The position numbers and the translations under genes are program-made. A DNA stretch of 64,000 nt from Lachnospira eligens (GTDB lineage: Bacteria; Bacillota; Clostridia; Lachnospirales; Lachnospiraceae): NCBI RefSeq assembly GCF_009680455.1, contig NZ_WKRD01000006.1:62001-126000 (forward strand). Direction: 5' to 3'. Position 1 is the first letter of the stretch; every line of letters begins with the position of its first letter. Positions 35,459 through 50,398 of this stretch are shown here, in pieces. The notes under the pieces were generated by a model. It was not told the origin of the DNA and searched no databases. It saw only the letters and a list, made by a program, of their open reading frames with translations.

Positions 35459-36418
35459 ATGAAATATTCAAATGTTGTTGTTGCCGGAGGCGGAGTGCTT
35501 GGAAGCCAGATTGCTTTTCAGGCAGCATATTGTGGATTTAATGTAACTATCTGGTTAAGAAGCGAGGGGTCTATTGGAAGAACACAGCCTAAGATTGACC
35601 ATCTTAAGCAGACTTATATTGAAGCTATTGAGAAGATGGCAGAGGATAAGAATGCGTGGTGTGCAGGACTTGCGGATGAAGATACATTTGACAAGGAAGA
35701 GTGTCTTAAGAAGGTTGAAAATGCATACGCTAATCTCAAGCTTGAACTTGATATGGCTAAGGCTGTGGCAGATGCAGACCTTGTGATTGAGTCTATGGCT
35801 GAGAACGAAAAGGATAAGATTGCTTTCTATGAAAAGCTTTCACCACTTCTTCCAGAAAAGACTGTGATTGTAACTAATTCATCGACACTTCTTCCATCAA
35901 TGTTTGCAAAATATACTGGCAGACCAGACAAATATTTGTCATTACATTTTGCTAATTCTATATGGAAGAATAATACTGCAGAAATTATGACACAGGCTCA
36001 GACTGATGAGAAGTATTTTAACGAAGTTATGCAGTTTGCTAACGATATACGAATGATTGGACTTCCTGTAAGAAAGGAAAAGAGCGGATATCTGCTTAAT
36101 TCTATGCTGGTTCCATTCCTTCTTAGCGGACTTGATCTGTATGCTGCAGGAGTGTCTGATCCTGAAAGCATTGATATTGCATGGACAAGAGGAACAGGTG
36201 CACCTAAAGGCCCTTTCCAGATATTTGATACAGTAGGGCTTAATACTGCATATAATATTGTTCACCAGTATCAGAGTGTTCCGGGAATATTCTCACCACT
36301 TCTTAAGAAGATGATGATGCCATATAATTTCAAGAAGATGGAAGCTATTCTCAAGAAGTATATTGATGAGGGAAAGCTTGGAATGTCTTCAGGTGAAGGC
36401 TTTTATAAATACAACTAA
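35459..36418 (+). CDS. 3-hydroxyacyl-CoA dehydrogenase-family protein
   Basis: A 319-residue soluble NAD(H)-dependent dehydrogenase. The Rossmann motif is VVAGGGVLGSQIAFQAAYCG. The acidic ESMAENEKDK segment, TNSSTLLPSMFA, the catalytic-histidine region LSLHFANSIW and KSGYLLNSML (the usual PGFxxNR position) are visible. The C-terminal helical domain contains GAPKGPFQIFDTVGL and the end SSGEGFYKY. Relative to fatty-acid/butyrate 3-hydroxybutyryl-CoA dehydrogenases several signature residues are changed (LHFANSIWKN in place of HFFNPVPVM), so the substrate is uncertain. No thiolase or crotonase is nearby. It starts after AAAGGGGAT, 28 bases past the TIR gene, so it may be cotranscribed. Confidence 0.8.
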   Translation: MKYSNVVVAGGGVLGSQIAFQAAYCGFNVTIWLRSEGSIGRTQPKIDHLKQTYIEAIEKMAEDKNAWCAGLADEDTFDKEECLKKVENAYANLKLELDMAKAVADADLVIESMAENEKDKIAFYEKLSPLLPEKTVIVTNSSTLLPSMFAKYTGRPDKYLSLHFANSIWKNNTAEIMTQAQTDEKYFNEVMQFANDIRMIGLPVRKEKSGYLLNSMLVPFLLSGLDLYAAGVSDPESIDIAWTRGTGAPKGPFQIFDTVGLNTAYNIVHQYQSVPGIFSPLLKKMMMPYNFKKMEAILKKYIDEGKLGMSSGEGFYKYN

Positions 36419-38777: not shown

Positions 38778-38969
38778 ATGTGGAAGATAAAACAGATATT
38801 TGACGGAGATTATGGGTGTGAAGAACTTGCAGAAGGGCAGACACCCAGGGTTTCTGTTATGCTTGTTGATGAAGCTGGCGCTAAGAAATATATTACAGTA
38901 GAAGATAAATGGCTTACTGATAACGGACTTGATGAAGGTTCAGTGTGGCCGGAGGATACAGATGAATAG
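38778..38969 (+). CDS. 63-residue conserved hypothetical protein
   Basis: A small acidic soluble protein (WKIKQIFDGDYGCEELAEGQ, then DEGSVWPED). It starts at ATG 38778 after ACGGAGA. Its last codons overlap the start of the amidase lipoprotein gene (ATG 38962), so they are coupled. I recall similar small proteins in Lachnospiraceae but cannot give a family or role. Confidence 0.65.
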   Translation: MWKIKQIFDGDYGCEELAEGQTPRVSVMLVDEAGAKKYITVEDKWLTDNGLDEGSVWPEDTDE

Positions 38970-40059
38970 ATTGACAAATGCTGCTAAATATGCAGCTATT
39001 ATAATGTCGCTGATAGTTACTGTGACGATGGTGTCAGGCTGTAAAAAGAATAATACTGATGTTTCATCGGAATTGAATAAATCGGACATTGAAGAAACAA
39101 GTCAGGATATGACTGGAAGCGGAATCGAGGATTCAGATGCAGGCAGTCAGTCTGCTGAGGAGACAGCAGAAACAGAAAGCACAGAGCAGACAGGAAGCGA
39201 TTTTGAAGGGAATACAGAACAGATTGAAACAGATGCAGGGCAGGAGGAGACGCAGAATCCATATATAAGACAGAAAGAACCATATACCGGAGTCCCTGTA
39301 TATGAGAATCTGGAACACATTTATATGAATACAACATGGGAATATGCGGACCATTCTGCTATAAGTGATGGATATGCTGTTCTTTATAAAGCGTCAGGTC
39401 AGAGAAAGAACATTGTTGTCGGAGTTAATGCCGGGCATGGAACGGCAGGAGGTTCGGCGGTCAGAACATTGTGCCATCCGGATGGTTCTCTTAAGAGTAC
39501 AGGAGGCAGTACGGCGGCTGGCGCTGCGACAGCAACGGCGGTGTCAGGCGGAATGACATTTTATGATGGGACACCAGAGAGCGAAGTAACACTTAAGATG
39601 GCAGAGATTTTAAGAGATAAACTTCTGTTAGAAGGATATGATGTGCTGATGATAAGGGATTCATCAGATGTACAGCTTGATAATGTGGCAAGAACTGTAA
39701 TATGTAACAATGTTGCAGACTGTCATATATCATTGCACTGGGATGGTGATGGACTTTCATACGATAAGGGATGCTTTTATATAGCAGTTCCCGATGCAAT
39801 TAAGAATATGAGTCCTGTGGCAGACCACTGGCAGCAGCATGATTCACTTGGGGCATCACTTGTTGACGGACTTCGTGGACAAGGTGCAAAGATTCATGGT
39901 TCTGGAAGCATGGCGATAGATCTGACACAGACATCATACAGTACAGTTCCGTCAGTTGATATGGAACTTGGGAATGCAAGCTCAGACCATAGTGATGAAA
40001 CATTAGAAATGCTTGCCAATGGACTTGTGAATGGCGTTGGTGCATTTTTTGGATACTGA
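38962..40059 (+). CDS. N-acetylmuramoyl-L-alanine amidase lipoprotein (Amidase_3)
   Basis: 365 residues from ATG 38962 (GGAGGATAC site). A lipoprotein signal ends in MVSGC near residue 26, so the enzyme would be tethered outside the membrane. A Glu/Ser/Thr-rich linker of about 80 residues follows. The Amidase_3 domain (about 150-365) has the zinc ligands in VNAGHGTAGG (His), PESEVTLKMA (Glu) and ISLHWDGDG (His), and the catalytic glutamate in SVDMELGNASS. It cleaves the amide bond between MurNAc and the stem peptide. The insertion after AGHG (TLCHPDGSLKSTGGSTAAGA) is longer than in model enzymes such as CwlV/LytC. Confidence 0.9.
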   Translation: MNRLTNAAKYAAIIMSLIVTVTMVSGCKKNNTDVSSELNKSDIEETSQDMTGSGIEDSDAGSQSAEETAETESTEQTGSDFEGNTEQIETDAGQEETQNPYIRQKEPYTGVPVYENLEHIYMNTTWEYADHSAISDGYAVLYKASGQRKNIVVGVNAGHGTAGGSAVRTLCHPDGSLKSTGGSTAAGAATATAVSGGMTFYDGTPESEVTLKMAEILRDKLLLEGYDVLMIRDSSDVQLDNVARTVICNNVADCHISLHWDGDGLSYDKGCFYIAVPDAIKNMSPVADHWQQHDSLGASLVDGLRGQGAKIHGSGSMAIDLTQTSYSTVPSVDMELGNASSDHSDETLEMLANGLVNGVGAFFGY

Positions 40060-40100: not shown

Positions 40101-40865
40101 ATGGATAAGAAAACACAGATTATAGCAGTAGCAGGAAAAGGAGGCGTTGGTAAGACTTCGCTGGCGGGAGTTATTGTAAAGCTTCTTGTTGAGGCACACC
40201 CAGATAAGAAGATACTTGCGATTGACGCTGACCCGGCGGTCGGACTTTCTACAGTGCTTAATGTTGAGGTTGATAAGACTATAGATGATATAAGAAAAGA
40301 AGTAATCAAGAATGTTGAAGGCGGAGATACCAAGACTGCTGTGGAGTTACTTGGAGAAGCCAAATACGAGATAATGGATGCAGTTGTTGAACAGGACGGA
40401 TATGCATTTATCGCAATAGGAAGACCTGAGACAGCGGGCTGTTACTGCAAGATTAATTCATATCTTAAAGAAGTTATCACAATGCTTTCAGATAAGTTTG
40501 ATTATGTTGTAATTGATGGAGAAGCAGGAATAGAGCAGATTAACAGAAGAGTTATGGAGAAGGTTACACATCTGCTGCTTGTTACTGACGCAAGCAAGAA
40601 GGGATGCCAGGTTGTGCAGACAATCAAGAAAGTTGCAGATGAGCTTGTGATGTATGACAGAATCGGAGTTATCGCTAACAGAATACCGGATATGGAGGTT
40701 GCGAAGCTTATGGATATCGGCGGCCTTGAGCTGCTTTCAGTAATACAGAGCGATTCCAAGCTTGCGCAGGCAGATGTTCTTGGTGAAAATGTATTCAATC
40801 TCCCTGATGATGCGATTATTGTTGAGGGTGCAAAGAAAGCCCTTGTTAATATGGGAATATTGTAA
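40101..40865 (+). CDS. CooC-type nickel-chaperone ATPase (MinD/SIMIBI family)
   Basis: 254 residues. P-loop AGKGGVGKTSLAGVI near the N-terminus and the Asp of AIDADPAVGL match the deviant Walker A and switch I of CooC/MinD ATPases. A CxC motif (C114, C116 in AGCYCKINSYL) is the residue pair by which CooC dimers bind nickel or zinc. VVIDGEAGIEQINRR matches the CooC Walker B and following residues. CooC supplies nickel for the carbon monoxide dehydrogenase C-cluster. No CODH catalytic subunit is in the window. It starts behind AAGGAGAA and is 12 bases from the next gene, leading the six-gene operon. Confidence 0.85.
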   Translation: MDKKTQIIAVAGKGGVGKTSLAGVIVKLLVEAHPDKKILAIDADPAVGLSTVLNVEVDKTIDDIRKEVIKNVEGGDTKTAVELLGEAKYEIMDAVVEQDGYAFIAIGRPETAGCYCKINSYLKEVITMLSDKFDYVVIDGEAGIEQINRRVMEKVTHLLLVTDASKKGCQVVQTIKKVADELVMYDRIGVIANRIPDMEVAKLMDIGGLELLSVIQSDSKLAQADVLGENVFNLPDDAIIVEGAKKALVNMGIL

Positions 40866-40877
40866 GAGGAGGCAAAT

Positions 40878-42071
40878 GTGAAGGATTTAGCTAATCTGTA
40901 TTATTTTGAGAAGCTTTTGGAGGACGTGAATAACGACCTTGTAAGGCAGGCACAGGCTAAAGGTGATATTGCAATCGGTGCAGTCTGTTTTCAGATACCG
41001 GAGCCGCTTATTAATCTGCCGGGCAGTTTTTCGGTAAGGCTGCGTGCACCCCGTACAGGTTCTATAGAGATGGGTACATATTACATGAGCAGTATGCTAT
41101 GTGAGGGATGTCGTGCGATATTAGAGAGAGCAATTGAGGGTGGATTTAACTTTCTTGACTGTATAATTGCGCCGGATGCATGTGCGCAGATGAACAGGTG
41201 CGTAGAGAATATTGAGAGACAGCACCTTATAGAGAAGGAAAAATTCTTTGTGGAATATTCAGATGTTCCGATGAAGAATGATGAGACGGCGTTAAGACAT
41301 TTTGTTAAGCAGATGAGACTTCATGTGCTTGAACCGCTTAATAATACATATGGAATAGACATATCAGATGATGCACTTAGAAAGTCAGTAGAATTGCAGA
41401 ATAAGATAAGCCGGCTTATAAGAAGCATCGGTGATTACAGAAAAGAAGATAATCCAAGAATTACTGGGTATGAATTCGCGGTTCTGTGTCTTGCAACCTA
41501 CTGCTGCCCGAAAGAGGCACTTATAGAAAAGCTCGAAGAAACACTTGAGGAACTTAAGACACGTGAACCTGATAAAAAATGTAATTACAGGGCAAGGGTC
41601 GTAATGGTTGGTTCAGAGATTGATAACCCTGAGCTTATAAAGCTTGCTGAGGAGGCAGGTGCACTGGTTGTGGCTGACAGATTCTGTTTTGGTTCACTTC
41701 CGGGAAGAGATGAGATTATTCTTAACGATACAGAGGATGTTCTTACACAGATATGCAGACAGTATATGAAGTGGGGACAGTGTCCAAGATTCATGAATAC
41801 AGAAAAGATTATCGAGAGACAGGAGTATGTTGACGCAATAGCTAAAGAGTATAAGGCGGATGGTCTTATATATCAGCAGATTAAATTCTGTGATTACTGG
41901 GGCTATGAGAGGGCTTCGGCATTCCATGTCATGAAAGAAAAATACGGCTATCCTGTTCTTTCAATTGACAGACCTTATGCTGTCGGAACTTCTGGACAGT
42001 TAAGAACAAGGATACAGGCATTTGTTGAGAGCCTTGAGATTAAGCGTATCAATGCAGGAAGGAAATTATAA
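40878..42071 (+). CDS. 2-hydroxyacyl-CoA dehydratase-like subunit 1 (HgdB/BcrC family)
   Basis: 397 residues from GTG 40878 (GAGGAGGC site). It resembles the D-component subunits of 2-hydroxyglutaryl-CoA dehydratase and benzoyl-CoA reductase. Cysteines that could ligate a [4Fe-4S] cluster are found in SSMLCEGCRAI (about 75-78), APDACAQMNRC (about 97-103) and KFCDYWGYERA near 337. The C-terminal domain has VVMVGSEIDNPELIKLAEEA and the end SIDRPYAVGTSGQLRTRIQA, both typical of the family. In known enzymes such subunits take electrons from an ATP-driven activator to make a substrate ketyl radical. CoA is not the certain ligand here. Confidence 0.85.
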   Translation: MKDLANLYYFEKLLEDVNNDLVRQAQAKGDIAIGAVCFQIPEPLINLPGSFSVRLRAPRTGSIEMGTYYMSSMLCEGCRAILERAIEGGFNFLDCIIAPDACAQMNRCVENIERQHLIEKEKFFVEYSDVPMKNDETALRHFVKQMRLHVLEPLNNTYGIDISDDALRKSVELQNKISRLIRSIGDYRKEDNPRITGYEFAVLCLATYCCPKEALIEKLEETLEELKTREPDKKCNYRARVVMVGSEIDNPELIKLAEEAGALVVADRFCFGSLPGRDEIILNDTEDVLTQICRQYMKWGQCPRFMNTEKIIERQEYVDAIAKEYKADGLIYQQIKFCDYWGYERASAFHVMKEKYGYPVLSIDRPYAVGTSGQLRTRIQAFVESLEIKRINAGRKL

Positions 42072-42073
42072 AT

Positions 42074-43612
42074 ATGTCTAAGAATATAGGAAGCGAGCCA
42101 CTTGGCAGATTCTATACAGGCAAAAAGCCGAAGAGAAGAAGAGAATGGCGCGGATTGAAGGATACATGGTATGACTATGTAAGGTGGCTTGGATACTGGA
42201 AGACTTTAATCACATTTATAATAAAACCTAATAACATGAAGGGCTTCTTCAGATACCGCTGGATGATTAATTATCTTGCATTGCCTGATTTCATGGACAG
42301 GCATACCGAGGGCATGAGAGGAACTCAGCTTAGAATGGCGCATCAGGCACTGGGACTTATCGTTACTGATATATGCGGGATGCTTGGACAGATATTTAAG
42401 GCAGACCCAGCTATCGGCAATGACAAGAAGCTAAACAGCAAGATTGTCCTTTTTGATGAAAATATGATGAGTACCCTGATGGGAGGTTTTCCGAACCTTA
42501 CATGGTTGTCAGTGGAAGTTCCTGCTGTGTATACAAGCTCAATGATGTCACAGGATGGAGTGAGCTATTATGTTGATGTTACACACCAGTATGGTGTTCC
42601 GTCAGATGTCTGTCCTATGCCGGCGGCGGAGCTTGGTGTTGCACTGGCTGATGATTTCCCACTTATAGGCTGCTGTGCCGTGCAGTGTAATACGACATGT
42701 GACGGAAGCCTTATGGGTAACGGGATTGAAGCAAGGTCATTTAAGATTCCTACATTTCAGCTTGCTGTGCCTATAAGACACAGGCAGGAAAGTGTACAGG
42801 AGTATGCGGCAGAAGAGGTTGTCAATGCAATCCATTTCATAGAGGAACAGACAGGCGAGAAGTTCGACTGGAATGCGTTCTTTAAGAGTATGAAGCGGTT
42901 TAATGCAGAGACAGAGGAATTCTTAGAGTGGATGGAGATTTCCAAGACAGATTATCCGCAGGTTATGGGCGTAACGCTCGCACTTTACAGATATGGTGTG
43001 TATCAGGCTGCCGGTGGAAGAAATCAGGCATTTCTTGATATGGATAAAAAGCTTACGAAGATGGCGCTTGACGCATATAAGAATAAAGAAATGGCGGCGA
43101 AGGAGTACCGCCACAGAGCAATGACATGGGGCGTTCAGGCTGCGTATTACACAGCACTTCCAATCTGGCTTCTTAACTGCTGGGGCGTTGTGACTATTGC
43201 GGATATGTTAAGTATGGTGTCTACAGAGATGGTCAATACAGAGGATAAGCATCAGGCAATGTTAGACCTTGCATATCTGTATGAGAATATGATTATGCGA
43301 AACCGTTCTAACGGCGGTTATGAGACAGGCGTAGAGGCACTCTGGCGCTTCTGCGAAATGTTTAATATTGATATTGTAATCATGTATGTGCATATGGGCT
43401 GCAAATCAATGTCGGGATATCACGGCTTATTTGAAGAAGAAGCAAGAAAACATGGAATTCATTTAATATGGGTAACACACAATCTTATGTGTCCTGAGGA
43501 TGGAACAAGAAGAGACATGAGAACGGAGATTAACAGATACATGAGAACTGTTTTCAGGGAAGAACCGCTCGACCCGTCACTTGAGGATTTTGACGATTCT
43601 AAGAGCTGGTAA
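42074..43612 (+). CDS. 2-hydroxyacyl-CoA dehydratase-like subunit 2
   Basis: 512 residues, starting two bases after the previous stop (AGGAAATTATAA site). The N-terminal 110 residues are basic and Trp-rich (KRRREWRGLKDTWYDYVRWL) and longer than in HgdA-type subunits. Cysteines are concentrated in SDVCPMPAAE, FPLIGCCAVQCNTTCDG (about 190-217), MGCKSMSGYHG and NLMCPEDGTRR. The ending VMYVHMGCKSMSG...GIHLIWVTHNLM follows the family's C-terminal domain. The many cysteines near residue 200 exceed the three ligands expected for one [4Fe-4S], so a second or double-cubane cluster is possible. It forms a heterodimer candidate with subunit 1. Confidence 0.8.
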   Translation: MSKNIGSEPLGRFYTGKKPKRRREWRGLKDTWYDYVRWLGYWKTLITFIIKPNNMKGFFRYRWMINYLALPDFMDRHTEGMRGTQLRMAHQALGLIVTDICGMLGQIFKADPAIGNDKKLNSKIVLFDENMMSTLMGGFPNLTWLSVEVPAVYTSSMMSQDGVSYYVDVTHQYGVPSDVCPMPAAELGVALADDFPLIGCCAVQCNTTCDGSLMGNGIEARSFKIPTFQLAVPIRHRQESVQEYAAEEVVNAIHFIEEQTGEKFDWNAFFKSMKRFNAETEEFLEWMEISKTDYPQVMGVTLALYRYGVYQAAGGRNQAFLDMDKKLTKMALDAYKNKEMAAKEYRHRAMTWGVQAAYYTALPIWLLNCWGVVTIADMLSMVSTEMVNTEDKHQAMLDLAYLYENMIMRNRSNGGYETGVEALWRFCEMFNIDIVIMYVHMGCKSMSGYHGLFEEEARKHGIHLIWVTHNLMCPEDGTRRDMRTEINRYMRTVFREEPLDPSLEDFDDSKSW

Positions 43613-43653
43613 GAAGTGTGTATGCTGCATATGTGGCAGGAAAGGATAACAGA

Positions 43654-44448
43654 ATGAAATATTTCGGTGGTTGTGACGCAGGAAGTACATATACCAAATG
43701 TGTAATTATAGATGAGAATGGAAAAATCGCAGCTGCGGTTACTAAGAGAAGCAGGATTAATCCTGTGCTTAGTGCGAAGGATGCGCTTGACGAGGCTGTA
43801 AGCCAGGTTGACGGTTTAAACAGCGCAGAGGAGCTTACATATCTGATTGGTACCGGTTACGGAAGAAATAAAGTGCCATTTGCAGATGAGAATATATCAG
43901 AGATAAGCTGTCATGCTATGGGAGTTCATGTGACTGACCCTTCGGTTAAGGCGATTATTGATATCGGAGGTCAGGATGTTAAGGGAATTGCAATTGACAC
44001 CGACGGAACTGTACTTAATTTTGCAATGAATGACAAATGTGCAGCAGGAACGGGAAGATTCTTTGAATCTATGGCAAGAGCATTTGAGATGTCTTTAGAT
44101 GAATTTTCTAATCTGTCTCTTACAGCGAAGAATGTGATTCCAATAACAGCACAGTGCGCGGTATTTGCAGAGAGCGAGGTTATTTCGTTAGTAGGTGAGG
44201 GTAAGCCTATGGAAGAGATTGCAGCAGGAATACAGTTATCAGTTGCCAAGAGATGCTTTGTCATGGCTAAAAAAGCTGGTGCGGCTGACAGCGTTACACT
44301 TACAGGTGGATGTGCCAAGAATGAAGGCTTGAAGAAAGCAATAGAGAAGGTTCTTAAGATAAATGTAGTGGATCTGCCGACAGACCCACAGCTTATGGGA
44401 GCATTAGGTGCTGCAGAATATGCAAGACAGAAGGGAAGTAATGTATGA
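43654..44448 (+). CDS. ASKHA-family activator ATPase (HgdC/BadG-like)
   Basis: 264 residues from ATG 43654 (GGAAAGGA site). The actin-like fold motifs are GGCDAGSTYTKCVIID (phosphate 1), IDIGGQDVKGI (phosphate 2) and TLTGGCAKNEGL (adenosine). NDKCAAGTGRF and ITAQCAVFAESEVISL hold the two cysteines per monomer that bridge a [4Fe-4S] cluster at the dimer interface. In HgdC, ATP hydrolysis drives one low-potential electron into the dehydratase. All key residues are intact. The stop codon overlaps the next start (ATGA). Confidence 0.9.
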   Translation: MKYFGGCDAGSTYTKCVIIDENGKIAAAVTKRSRINPVLSAKDALDEAVSQVDGLNSAEELTYLIGTGYGRNKVPFADENISEISCHAMGVHVTDPSVKAIIDIGGQDVKGIAIDTDGTVLNFAMNDKCAAGTGRFFESMARAFEMSLDEFSNLSLTAKNVIPITAQCAVFAESEVISLVGEGKPMEEIAAGIQLSVAKRCFVMAKKAGAADSVTLTGGCAKNEGLKKAIEKVLKINVVDLPTDPQLMGALGAAEYARQKGSNV

Positions 44449-44639
44449 TAGTATTAAAAGTGCTGGCAATTATAGCAATCGTGCTTGTTGTGCTTTTTTT
44501 TCTCACTCTTGTTATATATTTCTTTAATCTTGATATGAAGTTTGCGGCATCTTTAATCAAGCCGCTTACAGCATATTATAACTGGTCAAAGAACAGGCGC
44601 GAGGCGAAGAAGCATAAGCAGGAAGAGCAGAAAGAGTGA
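44445..44639 (+). CDS. Single-pass small membrane protein in the dehydratase operon
   Basis: 64 residues. One long hydrophobic N-terminal helix (about 2-28) is followed by an amphipathic basic segment and a Lys/Glu-rich tail (NRREAKKHKQEEQKE). It starts inside the activator stop (ATGA overlap), so it is coupled to it. It may anchor the complex to the membrane, which is inference from position only. Confidence 0.7.
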   Translation: MIVLKVLAIIAIVLVVLFFLTLVIYFFNLDMKFAASLIKPLTAYYNWSKNRREAKKHKQEEQKE

Positions 44640-44687
44640 CAACAGAGGCAGTATCAGAAAGAATGACAGGAAGGGCAGAAACAGCCG

Positions 44688-45401
44688 ATGGATTTATATG
44701 ATGGTGAGATAAAGAAGCTGACATCAATGCTTGAAAATCATGGAGCAAAGAGACTTCCATTACAGAGAGTGTGGGAGATGACTGATAAAGAGAATCTTAT
44801 CCTTAAAAGTGAGATGGTTTATGAGCTTGGCGGTGGGAGCAATGCAGCGGTAAGTGCCATTGCATTTACACAGGATGAGGAACTTGTGCCGGAAGATGCT
44901 GTGTATCTTGTGGGTGATGACCTGTGTGATATTAAGAATGATATTTCATATGCAAGAATTACTGTAATCAGGCTGGATGGTGAATATATTAAGAATCATG
45001 ATGATAATGCACTGTATGCTTCAATGAGGGCAACTGATTATGTAAGATACCATGCATTTCCTAAAGGATATATGATGAGAATATCAGCAGTCAGGGAAAG
45101 AGAACCTGTGAGAGTGAGTAAGGAAGCAGTTTCGCATGGGATTAATTTTGCAGCGGTAGGACAGGGGCTTATCAATGCCTACAGGAAGCGTCCTGAGGTT
45201 GAGGCTGTAAGCATATATTTTGTCACGGAGCAGGATATTGATTACATATTTTTAAAAAGTGAAGCACACAGATGTGAACAGATAACTGACTCGTTAAACA
45301 ATATATTTAACGGTCTTACAATGGATTGTTCAACTTGCTCAAGCAGGGAATTGTGTGATGAAATAGACGGACTCAGACAATTACATATGAGTATTTTGTG
45401 A
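44688..45401 (+). CDS. Acetyl-CoA synthase beta-subunit-like protein (CdhC/AcsB N-terminal type)
   Basis: 237 residues. YELGGGSNAAVSAIAFTQDE and DLCDIKNDISYARITVIRLDG recall the ligand-binding segments of the CODH/ACS acetyl-CoA synthase subunit. The C-terminal MDCSTCSSRELCDEIDGL resembles its CxxCxxxxxC metal/structural motif followed by DEIDGLR. The protein is about one third of a full AcsB (about 700 residues) and lacks the A-cluster CxxC...GxC set at the end. It may be a domain recruited to carry an acyl group or to bind nickel. It is the last gene of the cluster. A weak ribosome site (GAAGGGC) precedes ATG 44688. The assignment rests on partial motifs. Confidence 0.6.
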   Translation: MDLYDGEIKKLTSMLENHGAKRLPLQRVWEMTDKENLILKSEMVYELGGGSNAAVSAIAFTQDEELVPEDAVYLVGDDLCDIKNDISYARITVIRLDGEYIKNHDDNALYASMRATDYVRYHAFPKGYMMRISAVREREPVRVSKEAVSHGINFAAVGQGLINAYRKRPEVEAVSIYFVTEQDIDYIFLKSEAHRCEQITDSLNNIFNGLTMDCSTCSSRELCDEIDGLRQLHMSIL

Positions 45402-45511: not shown

Positions 45512-47221
45512 ATGTTTAAGAAAATGAATAACAAGAAGATAAAGGGGCGTTTGGACTATGTATTCAGACTGATAATTATATCATTTTCCGTAGTTGCAGT
45601 TGTTATATGTGTAATGATGATTTATATGTCTATGGATTACCGCAGGGTGCTGACGCGTTATGCGTTCCCTCAGGGAGATATTGCTACAGCTATGTCTGAG
45701 GCAGCAGAGATAAGAGGCGCTTCAAGAGGAGTTGTAGGATATGATTCAGTAAGTCTTATCAACTCAATGAAACAGCAGCATGATGAGCATGTCGAAGCAT
45801 TTGAAGACAAGCTTGAACAGATAAGACCTTTAATGTCTAGTAAGGCTGGCAAGGAATGTATGGACAAGATTGATAAGGCATGGGCTGAATATAAGGAGAT
45901 TGATGAGCAGGTTATAAAGCTGGGAGCTACAACAGATGCTAATCAGTCAATGAAGGCACAGACGATGATGCAGAAAGAGATGGCACCTAAGTATGAGGCA
46001 CTTGATAATGCACTTAATGAACTTATGGACACTAATGTTGCTAAAGGTAATGCAGAAAAATTAAAGCTTGAAATATTACTTAAAATAGCAATTGTTGCGG
46101 CAGTTGGAATTATAGCTGCGGTAGTTGTTGTTGCTTCTAAATCAGCACGTGCGATTGCAAAGAGTATAGAAGCTCCATTAGATGGAATGATGGCCAGATT
46201 CGAGACATTTGCACAGGGAGATCTGGATTCACCATTCCCAGAAGTTGAGACTAATGATGAGATATCTGATCTTATAGACAGTGCACATGCTATGGCAGAA
46301 AGATTACATAATATTATCAGTGATGCCGGAAAACTTATGGGAGAGATGGCAGATGGTAATTTCGCTATCGCAACCGAACATGAAGATCAGTATACAGGTG
46401 CATTCAATGCATTGTTACTTGGAATTCGTAACATGAACCGTCAGATGAATTCAACATTAAAGGGTGTTGAAGATGCTTCTAAACAGGTGGCAGAAGGTTC
46501 TGCTAATCTTTCAGATGCTGCACAGTCGCTTGCAGAAGGTGCAACAGATCAGGCTGCAACAGTCGAAGAGATGCAGGCAACCATTAATGATCTTAATGAA
46601 GGTATACAGAAGACAGCAGAACAGCTGGAAAATTCATATAAAGAAGCAGAGAGATATGCTGATACAGCAGAAAACAGCAGAGAAAGCATGGAAGCTCTTA
46701 TGGGGGCAATGGCTCGTATCAGTGAGGCTTCTGAGAAGATTGGCAATATCATTTCAGAGATTGAAAGTATTGCAAGCCAGACTAACCTTCTTTCACTTAA
46801 TGCTTCCATTGAGGCTGCAAGAGCAGGTGATGCAGGCAGAGGATTTGCAGTAGTTGCTGACCAGATTCGTACACTTGCAGAGCAGAGTGCTAAGTCAGCG
46901 GTAGATTCAAGAAATCTTATAGAAGCTTCTATCTACGAGGTTGGAGAGGGGAATAAGATTGCTACTAAGGCATCTGATTCACTTAAGGAAGTTGTTGATG
47001 GTGTTCAGTCTATCGCAGAGAGTGCCAAGAAGATGAGAGATGTATCTACAAGTCAGGCTGCAGGTATGGAGCAGGCGGATGTTGAAATTGCAAGAATTGC
47101 AGAAGTTGTACAGGCTAATTCAGCAACATCACAGGAGACATCAGCTACAAGTGAAGAGCTTACAGCACAGGCTACAACTCTTAGTGAGATGGTTGCACAG
47201 TTTAAGTTAAGAAATGACTGA
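45512..47221 (+). CDS. Methyl-accepting chemotaxis protein
   Basis: 569 residues. Two membrane segments (about 17-37 and 190-207) flank a ~150-residue helical periplasmic-side sensor of the four-helix-bundle type (4HB_MCP). A HAMP domain follows (about 208-310, with [16 protein letters not shown]). The C-terminal signalling domain has the conserved hairpin tip [34 protein letters not shown] (about 415-450), which contacts CheA and CheW. No C-terminal receptor-methylase pentapeptide is seen. It starts behind GGAAAGGCAGG, separate from the dehydratase operon by 110 AT-rich bases. Ligand unknown. Confidence 0.95.
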
Positions 47222-49005: not shown

Positions 49006-49284
49006 ATGAATGAATATGTCTGGGAGACATGTGAAGAACTGGATAAAAAAATAGCTGACAGGGTAAGACTAATAAGAAAAAGACGCGCCATTTCACAAGA
49101 GAAGCTTTCTAAGATTAGCAATGTCAGTCTTGGCTCGATAAAAAGATTTGAAACAACAGGACAGATTTCACTGTTATCGCTGACTAAGATAGCTGTAGCA
49201 CTTAATATCGCTGATGATTTAAGAAACATTTTTACGGAGATTCCTTATAACAGTATTGAGGAGGTAATAAATGAAAGAAGATAG
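49006..49284 (+). CDS. hipB: HipB-like XRE antitoxin
   Basis: 92 residues. The helix-turn-helix is DRVRLIRKRRAISQEKLSKI...GSIKRFETTGQISLLSLTKI. It would bind the inverted repeats upstream and neutralise the adjacent kinase. ATG 49006 follows AGGAGGG. The coding end overlaps hipA by 14 bases, the usual toxin-antitoxin coupling. The antitoxin is upstream of the toxin, as expected for HipBA. Confidence 0.85.
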   Translation: MNEYVWETCEELDKKIADRVRLIRKRRAISQEKLSKISNVSLGSIKRFETTGQISLLSLTKIAVALNIADDLRNIFTEIPYNSIEEVINERR

Positions 49285-50398
49285 AGTTATAAATGTTTTT
49301 TATCATGACAGGCTTGTTGGAACTCTTGCTATGACGAACGAAAGAAAGGCTGCATTTGAATATGCAGATGAATGGCTGGAGAACGGATTTTCAATAAGTC
49401 CGTTTTCATTGCCCCTTGAAAAGAAAGTATGTGTCCCTGTTAAAGAATATTTTAATGGCTTATGGGGAGTATTTGCAGACAGTCTGCCTGATGCATGGGG
49501 ACAGCTGCTGCTTGACAGGATGTTAAAAGAAAAGGGATGTAATATAGACAATGTGAGTATGTTGGACAGGCTTGCAATTGTTGGAGAATCAGGAATGGGA
49601 GCATTAACATACAGACCGGAATGGGATATGCCAAAGCAGGAAAAACTCAGCAGTCTTGATGAATTATCTGAACAGTGTCAGAAAATTCTTAATACTGAAT
49701 ATTCTGACAAGCTTGATGAATTATACAGGCTTGGTGGAACAAGTGGTGGAGCAAGACCTAAAATTATGACTAAGATAGATGGCGAGGATTGGATTATCAA
49801 GTTTCCTGCTCATGTTGATGGAAAGAATGCGGGGCTGATGGAATACCGATATTCACAGTGTGCAAAGCAGTGTGGAATTGATATGGAAGAGACCAGACTT
49901 TTTCCATCTGATATATGTGATGGATACTTTGGAATTAAAAGATTTGATCGTAAGAATGATTCATTTGGAGAACACAGAATCCATATGCTTACAGCAGCAG
50001 CGCTTCTTGAACTGGATTTCAGGCAGCCCAATATGGATTATCACCAACTTATGAAATTAACAAAAATATTAACAAGGGACAATAAGCATGATATAGAGAA
50101 TATGTACCGACGAATGTGTTTTAATGTGTTTGCACATAACAGAGATGACCATTCAAAGAATTTTACATTTATATATGATGAAAATAATGATGGCTGGAGA
50201 CTGAGCCCGGCATATGACCTGACTTATAGTACGACATATTATGGAGAACATACTACTACAGTAGACGGCAATGGAAGAAATCCAGGAATTAAGGAGCTGG
50301 CTGCTGTTGGAACAGCAGCTGGAATGGAAAAAGATATATGCACTGAGGTTGCGTACGACATAGAAAAATGTGTTAAAAACGAGCTGGATGGTAATTAA
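49271..50398 (+). CDS. hipA: HipA-family serine/threonine kinase toxin
   Basis: 375 residues. The N-terminal HipA_N couple domain (VINVFYHDRLVGTLAM, then FSLPLEKK) is followed by the kinase core. The glycine-rich loop is LGGTSGGARPK, the ATP-anchoring part is WIIKFPAH, the catalytic loop FNVFAHNRDDHSKNF has the Asp base, and the metal motif is LSPAYDLT. E. coli HipA phosphorylates glutamyl-tRNA synthetase and induces persistence. In this relative the substrate is not known. It is shorter than E. coli HipA (440). It looks intact. The bidirectional terminator at 50376-50414 overlaps its 3' end. Confidence 0.9.
   Translation: MKEDRVINVFYHDRLVGTLAMTNERKAAFEYADEWLENGFSISPFSLPLEKKVCVPVKEYFNGLWGVFADSLPDAWGQLLLDRMLKEKGCNIDNVSMLDRLAIVGESGMGALTYRPEWDMPKQEKLSSLDELSEQCQKILNTEYSDKLDELYRLGGTSGGARPKIMTKIDGEDWIIKFPAHVDGKNAGLMEYRYSQCAKQCGIDMEETRLFPSDICDGYFGIKRFDRKNDSFGEHRIHMLTAAALLELDFRQPNMDYHQLMKLTKILTRDNKHDIENMYRRMCFNVFAHNRDDHSKNFTFIYDENNDGWRLSPAYDLTYSTTYYGEHTTTVDGNGRNPGIKELAAVGTAAGMEKDICTEVAYDIEKCVKNELDGN

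Follow-up and report, generated by a model that had tools for sequence, protein, structure and literature searches.

Six genes of the plus strand at positions 40101-45401 of a 64,000-nucleotide stretch of Lachnospira eligens DNA (contig NZ_WKRD01000006.1; hereafter the window, meaning this whole stretch, whose numbering is used throughout) form a real and conserved operon. They encode a CooC-family ATPase, two subunits of the benzoyl-CoA reductase/2-hydroxyacyl-CoA dehydratase (BCR/HAD) family, here HgdA and HgdB, an ATP-dependent activase, a peptide of 64 residues and CdhL, a CdhC-like protein related to acetyl-CoA synthase (ACS). The set, carried by anaerobes of gut and sediment, combines an iron-sulfur reductase powered by ATP with two helper proteins otherwise known from nickel enzymes that make and use CO. 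On the strength of sequence comparisons, we lean towards the view that the operon represents a new branch of the ATP-driven BCR/HAD-type reductases, equipped with its own CooC and an adaptor derived from ACS, which would carry out the low-potential reduction of an unsaturated, probably CoA-bound substrate. The activase would hydrolyse ATP and drive electrons into an [8Fe-9S] cluster of HgdA, from where they would move on to a [4Fe-4S] site of HgdB, at which the substrate would be reduced. CooC, CdhL, the small peptide and the activase would together make up a unit of activation or maturation, in which CdhL, an iron-sulfur or metal-cluster adaptor perhaps placed near the membrane, would be the most likely client of CooC.

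The open reading frames and sequence of the window place the six genes one after another: the gaps after CooC, HgdA and HgdB measure 12, 2 and 5 bases, the activase and peptide genes overlap by 4, and 48 bases separate the peptide gene from that of CdhL. A first-pass annotation of this DNA, made from the letters alone, had proposed such a tightly spaced or overlapping operon, which was recovered at these coordinates and with an order conserved in relatives. The CooC-family P-loop ATPase (40101-40865) carries a deviant Walker A motif (GKGGVGKT) and a CxC pair at C114 and C116 (nt 40440-40448). It is followed by two HGD-D subunits, HgdA (40878-42071; PF06050, 5.5e-91, 306 bits) and the 512-residue, HadB/BzdO-like HgdB (42074-43612; PF06050, 5.2e-40, 138 bits), both above the cut-off of 28.4 bits, and by the BadF/HgdC-type activase (43618-44448; PF01869, 1.5e-57; TIGR00241, 223 bits with a cut-off of 125.4), which is more likely to start at the ATG at 43654 than at 43618. 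The peptide (44445-44639), read as an open reading frame, contains one hydrophobic helix and then a conserved YFFNLDMK, and CdhL (44688-45401; PF03598, 4.7e-9, 36.7 bits with a cut-off of 24) closes the operon. Assignment to Pfam and NCBIfam families covered the five larger operon proteins and gave the first of them as a CooC/MinD-type ATPase.

Two PF06050 subunits together with a BadF/HgdC-type activase place the core of the operon in the BCR/HAD (HGD-D) family, in agreement with the dehydratase-type iron-sulfur pair and ATP-driven activator of the first-pass annotation. The ligands of the [8Fe-9S] cluster in BzdN are Cys36/73/100/263/293/327 (PMC11971306), and C37, C75, C102, C270, C302 and C338 of HgdA were found to pair with these six in the alignment. 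All six positions are cysteines in 40/40 relatives, as well as in 15/15 proteins taken from all branches, and HgdA is therefore predicted to house the double cubane. In HgdB, whose fold matches HadB/BzdO with an N-terminal extension of about 80 residues, C180, C209 and C443 are invariant in 20 proteins of all branches and would form the predicted [4Fe-4S] cluster. The same annotation had pointed to a CCAVQCNTTC stretch in this second subunit, which it placed at residues 207-216, as an extra or double-cubane site. The motif actually lies at residues 200-209, and we discarded it as such a site: C201 and C205, kept in 54/56 and 53/56 closer relatives, occur in only 12/20 and 8/20 HgdB proteins across branches.

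To follow the operon in other genomes, relatives of CdhL were collected at 471 places, with one genome per species of GTDB 220 scanned, and the locus counts given here refer to the best 80 of these 471, a set biased toward close kin whose members are not independent. The order CooC-HgdA-HgdB-activase-peptide-CdhL occurs in 55 of the 80 loci and, when restricted to those with at least 6.5 kb of upstream sequence, in 50 of 60, so the co-occurrence of all six genes in the same order, suggested earlier as a check, was indeed observed. Among the loci with less than 6.5 kb upstream, 15 of the 80 have part of the operon absent and 5 more are still complete. The hosts include Pseudobutyrivibrio, Butyrivibrio fibrisolvens 16/4, Eubacterium, Acetatifactor, Treponema and a metagenome-assembled genome of Spirochaetae, CooC and CdhL being kept across families and two phyla. 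Moreover, in a sample of 120 genomes of the family (119 genera, at least 90% completeness requested), CdhL (E <= 0.001) was detected in 11, and HgdB (E <= 1e-60) in the identical 11 and in 0 of the other 109. The chance of two identical 11-genome sets is 1 in C(120,11), or about 9e-16, a figure that makes no correction for kinship or for the linkage of CdhL and HgdB. Such a shared distribution and the order seen in 50 of 60 loci indicate that the arrangement did not arise by chance.

The exceptions are informative about how the operon is built. Five of the 60 loci (L014, L020, L022, L029 and L036) have no HgdA and HgdB in place, and in all of them CooC, activase, peptide and CdhL stay together; the others are L052 (no CooC or HgdA), L063 (activase, peptide and CdhL alone), L074 (activase not found), and L079 and L081 (peptide not found). 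A different order, CooC-activase-CdhL and then HgdA-HgdB, is found in L088. In seven of the seven genomes searched (those of the five loci, L063 and L017), HgdB occurs elsewhere, in L017 through two partial matches, each on a contig of its own. Each of the six regions of this kind that were retrieved contains an HgdA-HgdB pair, with an extra frame between both genes in L105. HgdA and HgdB are thus separable on the chromosome yet co-present with the rest, as expected for an activation module set apart from a catalytic one.

Other arrangements of these genes were also seen. Two different HgdA-HgdB pairs surround a single CooC gene in L107 (7904-14788) and L207 (1454-8301), which suggests one activation module serving two reductases. 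In L100 (3383-8719), L106 (10006-15350) and L111 (13554-19000), the pair or the whole operon adjoins genes that by eye look like MksBEF-type condensin genes. A nitrogenase-like set adjoins the solitary HgdA-HgdB pair of L104 (11684-15423; genome G124): after a MetK-like protein, recognised by eye, come a NifH-like protein (TIGR01287, 374.6 bits with a cut-off of 394), NifE/D-like and NifK/BchB-like proteins and a sulfonate-type binding protein. A frameshift or a sequencing error has split HgdB in two frames in B. fibrisolvens 16/4 (L035, 5482-7031), and both HgdB and the activase in L055.

The assignment of the first protein, with its CxC at 114/116, to the CooC family was supported. Its best solved relative is CooC 3kje (E 2e-14), and the GKGGVGKT Walker A motif and the CxC pair are invariant in 29/29 operon CooCs. 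In the CooC of Carboxydothermus, this cysteine pair coordinates Zn or Ni at the interface of the dimer, and a CODH (carbon monoxide dehydrogenase) produced in the absence of CooC contained iron but no nickel (PMC6006190). When 63 CooC proteins were placed in a tree, the 22 from the operon grouped in a single clade (100/99), separate from two classes of 22 and 19 rows whose genes are close to those of ACS or CODH, and a grouping with the acs-linked CooC that adjoins ACS was rejected. The operon clade joins the other acs-linked class, the one of 19 rows, which is itself weakly supported (66/33), and long branches meet there. A role of the operon CooC as a CODH accessory was also rejected: CODH over the cut-off was found in 2 of the 11 genomes that carry the system, 9 being without it, versus 22 of the 109 others (Fisher p 1.0).

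CdhL, of 237 residues, is related to ACS by sequence, by profile and by its predicted fold, which matches domain A2 of ACS and supplies the structural match to AcsB on which the first-pass annotation had staked its proposal. The protein ends after a C-terminal CxxCx5C (C214, C217 and C223; nt 45327-45356), whose three cysteine columns are conserved in 41 relatives. The CGC nickel motif of ACS and a complete catalytic domain are absent from CdhL, whereas all 16 ACS sequences read out of 30 loci contain CGC (no frame was obtained for the remaining 14, most of which lie on the strand not read). The AcsB-like nature proposed for the last gene therefore holds for the A2 domain and perhaps for the first A-cluster cysteines, but not for CGC and the rest of the catalytic domain. 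ACS is itself the client of its CooC-type maturase AcsF. In the operon, CdhL is the best candidate for a CooC client, since its cysteines are as invariant as the CxC pair and it stays beside CooC in the five loci without HgdA and HgdB in place. Nickel may be involved, as suggested by CooC, the ACS origin of CdhL and the presence of HypA in part of the loci. As for the 64-residue peptide, its hydrophobic stretch looks transmembrane-like by eye, and Y25, N28, L29, D30 and K32 are invariant in 20/20 aligned sequences, kept from Lachnospiraceae to Spirochaetota. It was not found in L079, L081, L088, L107 and L113, nor in the distant branch of the system.

This distant branch is represented by G272, a member of Bacillota that also carries a complete ACS, with the order HgdA-HgdB-activase-activase-CdhL-CooC and two upstream acyl-CoA dehydrogenases, the second recognised by eye (L144 and L145). 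One relative of its CdhL is named Dethiobacteria, a class in which 6 of 97 genomes have CdhL at E <= 1e-20. Five further distant loci follow the same order as far as their contigs reach: L192 is complete, L196 is complete except for a CooC cut at the contig end, and L193, L194 and L195 are partial. In the three loci that reach far enough (L144, L192 and L196), acyl-CoA dehydrogenases precede the operon. In L192 (4632-13706), the operon is followed by a second HgdA-HgdB-activase set. Two loci from a single genus of another family, L205 and L206, also have the six-gene form; neighbours in L205 are an AOR-like protein, a 2-oxoacid:ferredoxin oxidoreductase and a PaaK-like ligase. An AOR-like protein occurs in L193 too, and a flavoenzyme resembling BaiCD and bilirubin reductase lies near the operon in L107, L206 and L207, in the latter about 24 bases after CdhL. 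These neighbours of L107, L193 and L205-L207 match equivalog models below cut-off, and their names therefore indicate families and not functions.

The most recurrent neighbour is an IsrA-like protein of about 950 residues with Fer4 and Pyr_redox domains, which lies within a few kb after CdhL in 33 of the 81 loci examined overall (L001 included); HypA is present in 27 of the 81. Considering the 62 loci with at least 4 kb downstream, 31 have the IsrA-like gene, 26 have HypA and 34 have either; in L066 (Spirochaetae), the IsrA-like gene is on the other strand. Genomes with the system are also enriched in the IsrA-like gene (E <= 1e-150; 8/11 versus 17/109, Fisher p 1.4e-4) and in HypA over the Pfam cut-off (8/11 versus 27/109, Fisher p 2.2e-3). 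In the genome nearest to the window, the IsrA-like gene lies about 370 kb from the operon. IsrA, a putative reductase of isoprene for which a nickel requirement has been proposed, has homologs that occur beside HypA, HypB and DUF5692 (PMC10134865). A comparable make-up, an FAD/NAD(P) oxidoreductase with Fer4 next to HypA, was recognised here by domains and neighbours, not by alignment to IsrA. The IsrA-like oxidoreductase and HypA form a module of their own in the family (L082, 8241-11362; L085, L089, L090 and L091), in some cases with HypB (cobW; L085 and L090) or DUF5692 (L089 and L091), and all 25 sampled genomes with the IsrA-like gene carry HypA over the Pfam cut-off, as judged by comparing two result lists by hand. 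A [NiFe]-hydrogenase as the reason for HypA was discarded, as PF00374 appears in 2 of the 11 genomes and over its first 69 positions only. Altogether, the IsrA-like/HypA, BaiCD-like, acyl-CoA dehydrogenase and PaaK-like neighbours point to redox chemistry of C=C bonds or acyl-CoA, and along with the chemistry of the family they suggest an unsaturated, CoA-bound substrate.

In the window itself, the gene upstream of the operon (38929-40059) encodes a protein that by eye looks like an amidase and has no NCBIfam match, and the gene downstream encodes a methyl-accepting chemotaxis protein (45512-47221; NCBIfam scan). As the first-pass annotation had noticed, no CODH, CoA-transferase or substrate-pathway gene adjoins it in these direct flanks. 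Ten recurrent or inserted neighbours of the relatives were scanned as well and contain no CoA-transferase or pathway gene, most neighbours being unannotated; in what was examined, the relatives do not all fall in known hydroxyacyl-CoA pathways with a CoA-transferase, the outcome that would have spoken against a new system. A 3-hydroxyacyl-CoA dehydrogenase (35459-36418; 375 bits with a cut-off of 312) is encoded 3.7 kb upstream of the operon, and a short helix-turn-helix gene followed by a gene of 375 codons without NCBIfam match, by eye HipB/HipA-like, lies downstream at 49006-50398. A scan for promoters and terminators gave no excess (9 promoter-like sites versus a shuffled mean of 14.9).

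Several alternative explanations were considered. A cryptic replacement of CODH/ACS, making or using acetyl-CoA or CO in Lachnospiraceae without the canonical genes, would account for an ACS-domain protein and a CooC beside low-potential double-cubane chemistry. One member of the family without canonical CODH/ACS genes is reported to show acetogenic labelling and CO dehydrogenase activity, Pseudobutyrivibrio xylanivorans and B. fibrisolvens being listed as relatives without an identified CODH/ACS complex (PMC7000372). The operon is present under both species names (L013 and L035), although strains may differ from those of that work, and this overlap is taken as a lead only. Such a replacement appears extremely improbable, as CdhL lacks the CGC nickel site and a strong match to the corrinoid protein (PF03599, E below 1e-70; 14 of the 120 genomes) was found in just one of the 11 genomes with the system (G020), the other ten having none. 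At the bare Pfam cut-off, PF03599 is matched in 34 of the 120 genomes, three of the 11 included; those of G052 and G119 are matches of 25-27 bits inside frames of more than 800 residues and presumably correspond to methionine synthase. With CODH in only 2 of the 11 genomes and a strong corrinoid match in one, CODH maturation does not account for the operon, nor does canonical synthesis of acetyl-CoA, which is unlikely as its role. Of the uncharacterised Ni/FeS reductase or C1/acyl system imagined in the first-pass annotation, the gene combination stands without a description found, but C1 or acetyl chemistry is disfavoured by this scarcity. A different alternative makes CooC an iron-sulfur maturase with a NifH-like role, in charge of assembling or repairing either the double cubane or the cluster of HgdB; CdhL would then be a mere scaffold or carry electrons, and nickel would play no part. 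Escherichia coli is not known to have a cooC gene. BzdNO with its double cubane was obtained in this host from a BzdNO plasmid (PMC11971306), so the cluster seems CooC-independent and CooC probably serves something else. In one CODH, moreover, the iron content was the same without CooC (PMC6006190). We consider this role unlikely, even if NifH belongs, like CooC, to the MinD-type ATPases (PMC6006190) and, among the 11 genomes with the system, 3 lack HypA and 9 lack CODH over the cut-off.

It is also conceivable, though quite unlikely, that HgdA, HgdB and the activase act on another metalloprotein, such as CdhL or the IsrA-like oxidoreductase, as a reductive activase or maturase and not on a small substrate. 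The five loci where CooC, activase, peptide and CdhL remain together with HgdA and HgdB away, the IsrA-like gene or HypA following in 34 of 62 loci and the enrichment of the former in genomes with the system would fit this idea, but HgdB retains the HadB/BzdO fold and ligands, the IsrA-like gene is absent from 3 of the 11 genomes, and the distant branch adjoins acyl-CoA dehydrogenases instead. Both subunits and the activase belong to the superfamily of the ordinary 2-hydroxyacyl-CoA dehydratases, and the operon could encode one of these with decayed or unrelated neighbours. This is very unlikely given the six double-cubane ligands kept in HgdA, where HAD-type dehydratases have lost part of the cluster (PMC11971306), the retention of CooC and CdhL across families and two phyla, and the absence of a CoA-transferase by the window operon or among the neighbour families scanned, not all neighbours being annotated. 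Against the ATP-driven reductase with a dedicated CooC and adaptor that we favour weigh several observations: neighbours vary between lineages, leaving a single common substrate unproven, and nothing within the window indicates the substrate; the accessory unit is not fixed, as no CooC lies within reach of CdhL in L052 and L063 and the peptide is absent in several relatives; 3 of the 11 genomes lack both HypA and the IsrA-like gene; CdhL gives no direct sign of metal, its cysteines falling outside the default hhalign alignment to ACS; and HgdA (156.4 bits) and HgdB (47.5 bits) stay below the cut-off of 350 of the double-cubane equivalog NF040772, which indicates that they are not orthologs of the described DCCP. 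A bolder proposal, which we find doubtful, is that CdhL holds nickel or another heterometal loaded by CooC next to a [4Fe-4S] cluster and forms a single working enzyme with the ATP-driven reductase, whose substrate in these anaerobes of gut and sediment would be unsaturated or of the C1/acyl kind. If true, nitrogenase-like electron delivery powered by ATP would for the first time be linked to organometallic chemistry of the CODH/ACS type.

No characterised pathway joining CooC, the dehydratase pair and the ACS-like part was found in open-licence PMC text, in keeping with the first-pass annotation, and neither was a description of the six-gene set, a search by which absence in print is not proven. 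Ligands and domains of the operon are those of the BCR/HAD double-cubane reductases and no equivalog cut-off is reached, so it is best filed as a variant of them. Double-cubane reductases can reduce inert molecules such as acetylene, hydrazine and azide, with natural roles unclear apart from benzoyl-CoA reductase (PMC11971306), and the operon adds a well-delimited branch in which CooC and a free-standing ACS domain become testable outside CODH/ACS. With hosts in rumen and gut that include named strains, both substrate and metal are open to deletion, proteomics and purification, and, if nickel is involved, an additional nickel enzyme would exist in genomes mostly without CODH (9 of the 11 sampled).

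Among known systems, the operon shares with class I benzoyl-CoA reductase BzdNO/BzdPQ (PDB 8s02) an [8Fe-9S] subunit, a [4Fe-4S] subunit and an ATP activator, the distant branch even having two activase subunits like BzdPQ. Differences are the extra N-terminal segment of HgdB, scores below the bzd/bcr equivalog cut-offs for every subunit (e.g., bzdN 108.6 of 453.8 and bzdQ 156.8 of 380.2), and the presence of CooC and an ACS-domain protein, which the passages of PMC11971306 consulted do not mention with the Bzd system. DCCP and its reductase (PDB 6eno and 7yyl) have the same double-cubane fold and ligands and an ATP-driven reductase partner, but DCCP forms homodimers in which each monomer carries a double cubane (PMC11971306), whereas in the operon the ligands are kept in HgdA only. 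Compared with the (R)-2-hydroxyisocaproyl-CoA dehydratase HadBC (PDB 3o3m), HgdA is of the double-cubane type, CooC, CdhL and the peptide are additional, and no CoA-transferase is seen. CdhL differs from AcsB/CdhC (PDB 1oao and 9c0t) in having no CGC, no complete A3 and no A1 domain. The neighbour make-up of an oxidoreductase and HypA, with HypB and DUF5692 beside homologs elsewhere, recalls the IsrA/HypAB module (PMC10134865), from which the operon is nevertheless separate, adjoining it in part of the loci only. Finally, the operon CooC keeps the Walker A motif and the metal-binding CxC pair of the CooC of CODH and acs operons (PDB 3kje), but it forms a separate clade, in hosts that mostly have no CODH over the cut-off.

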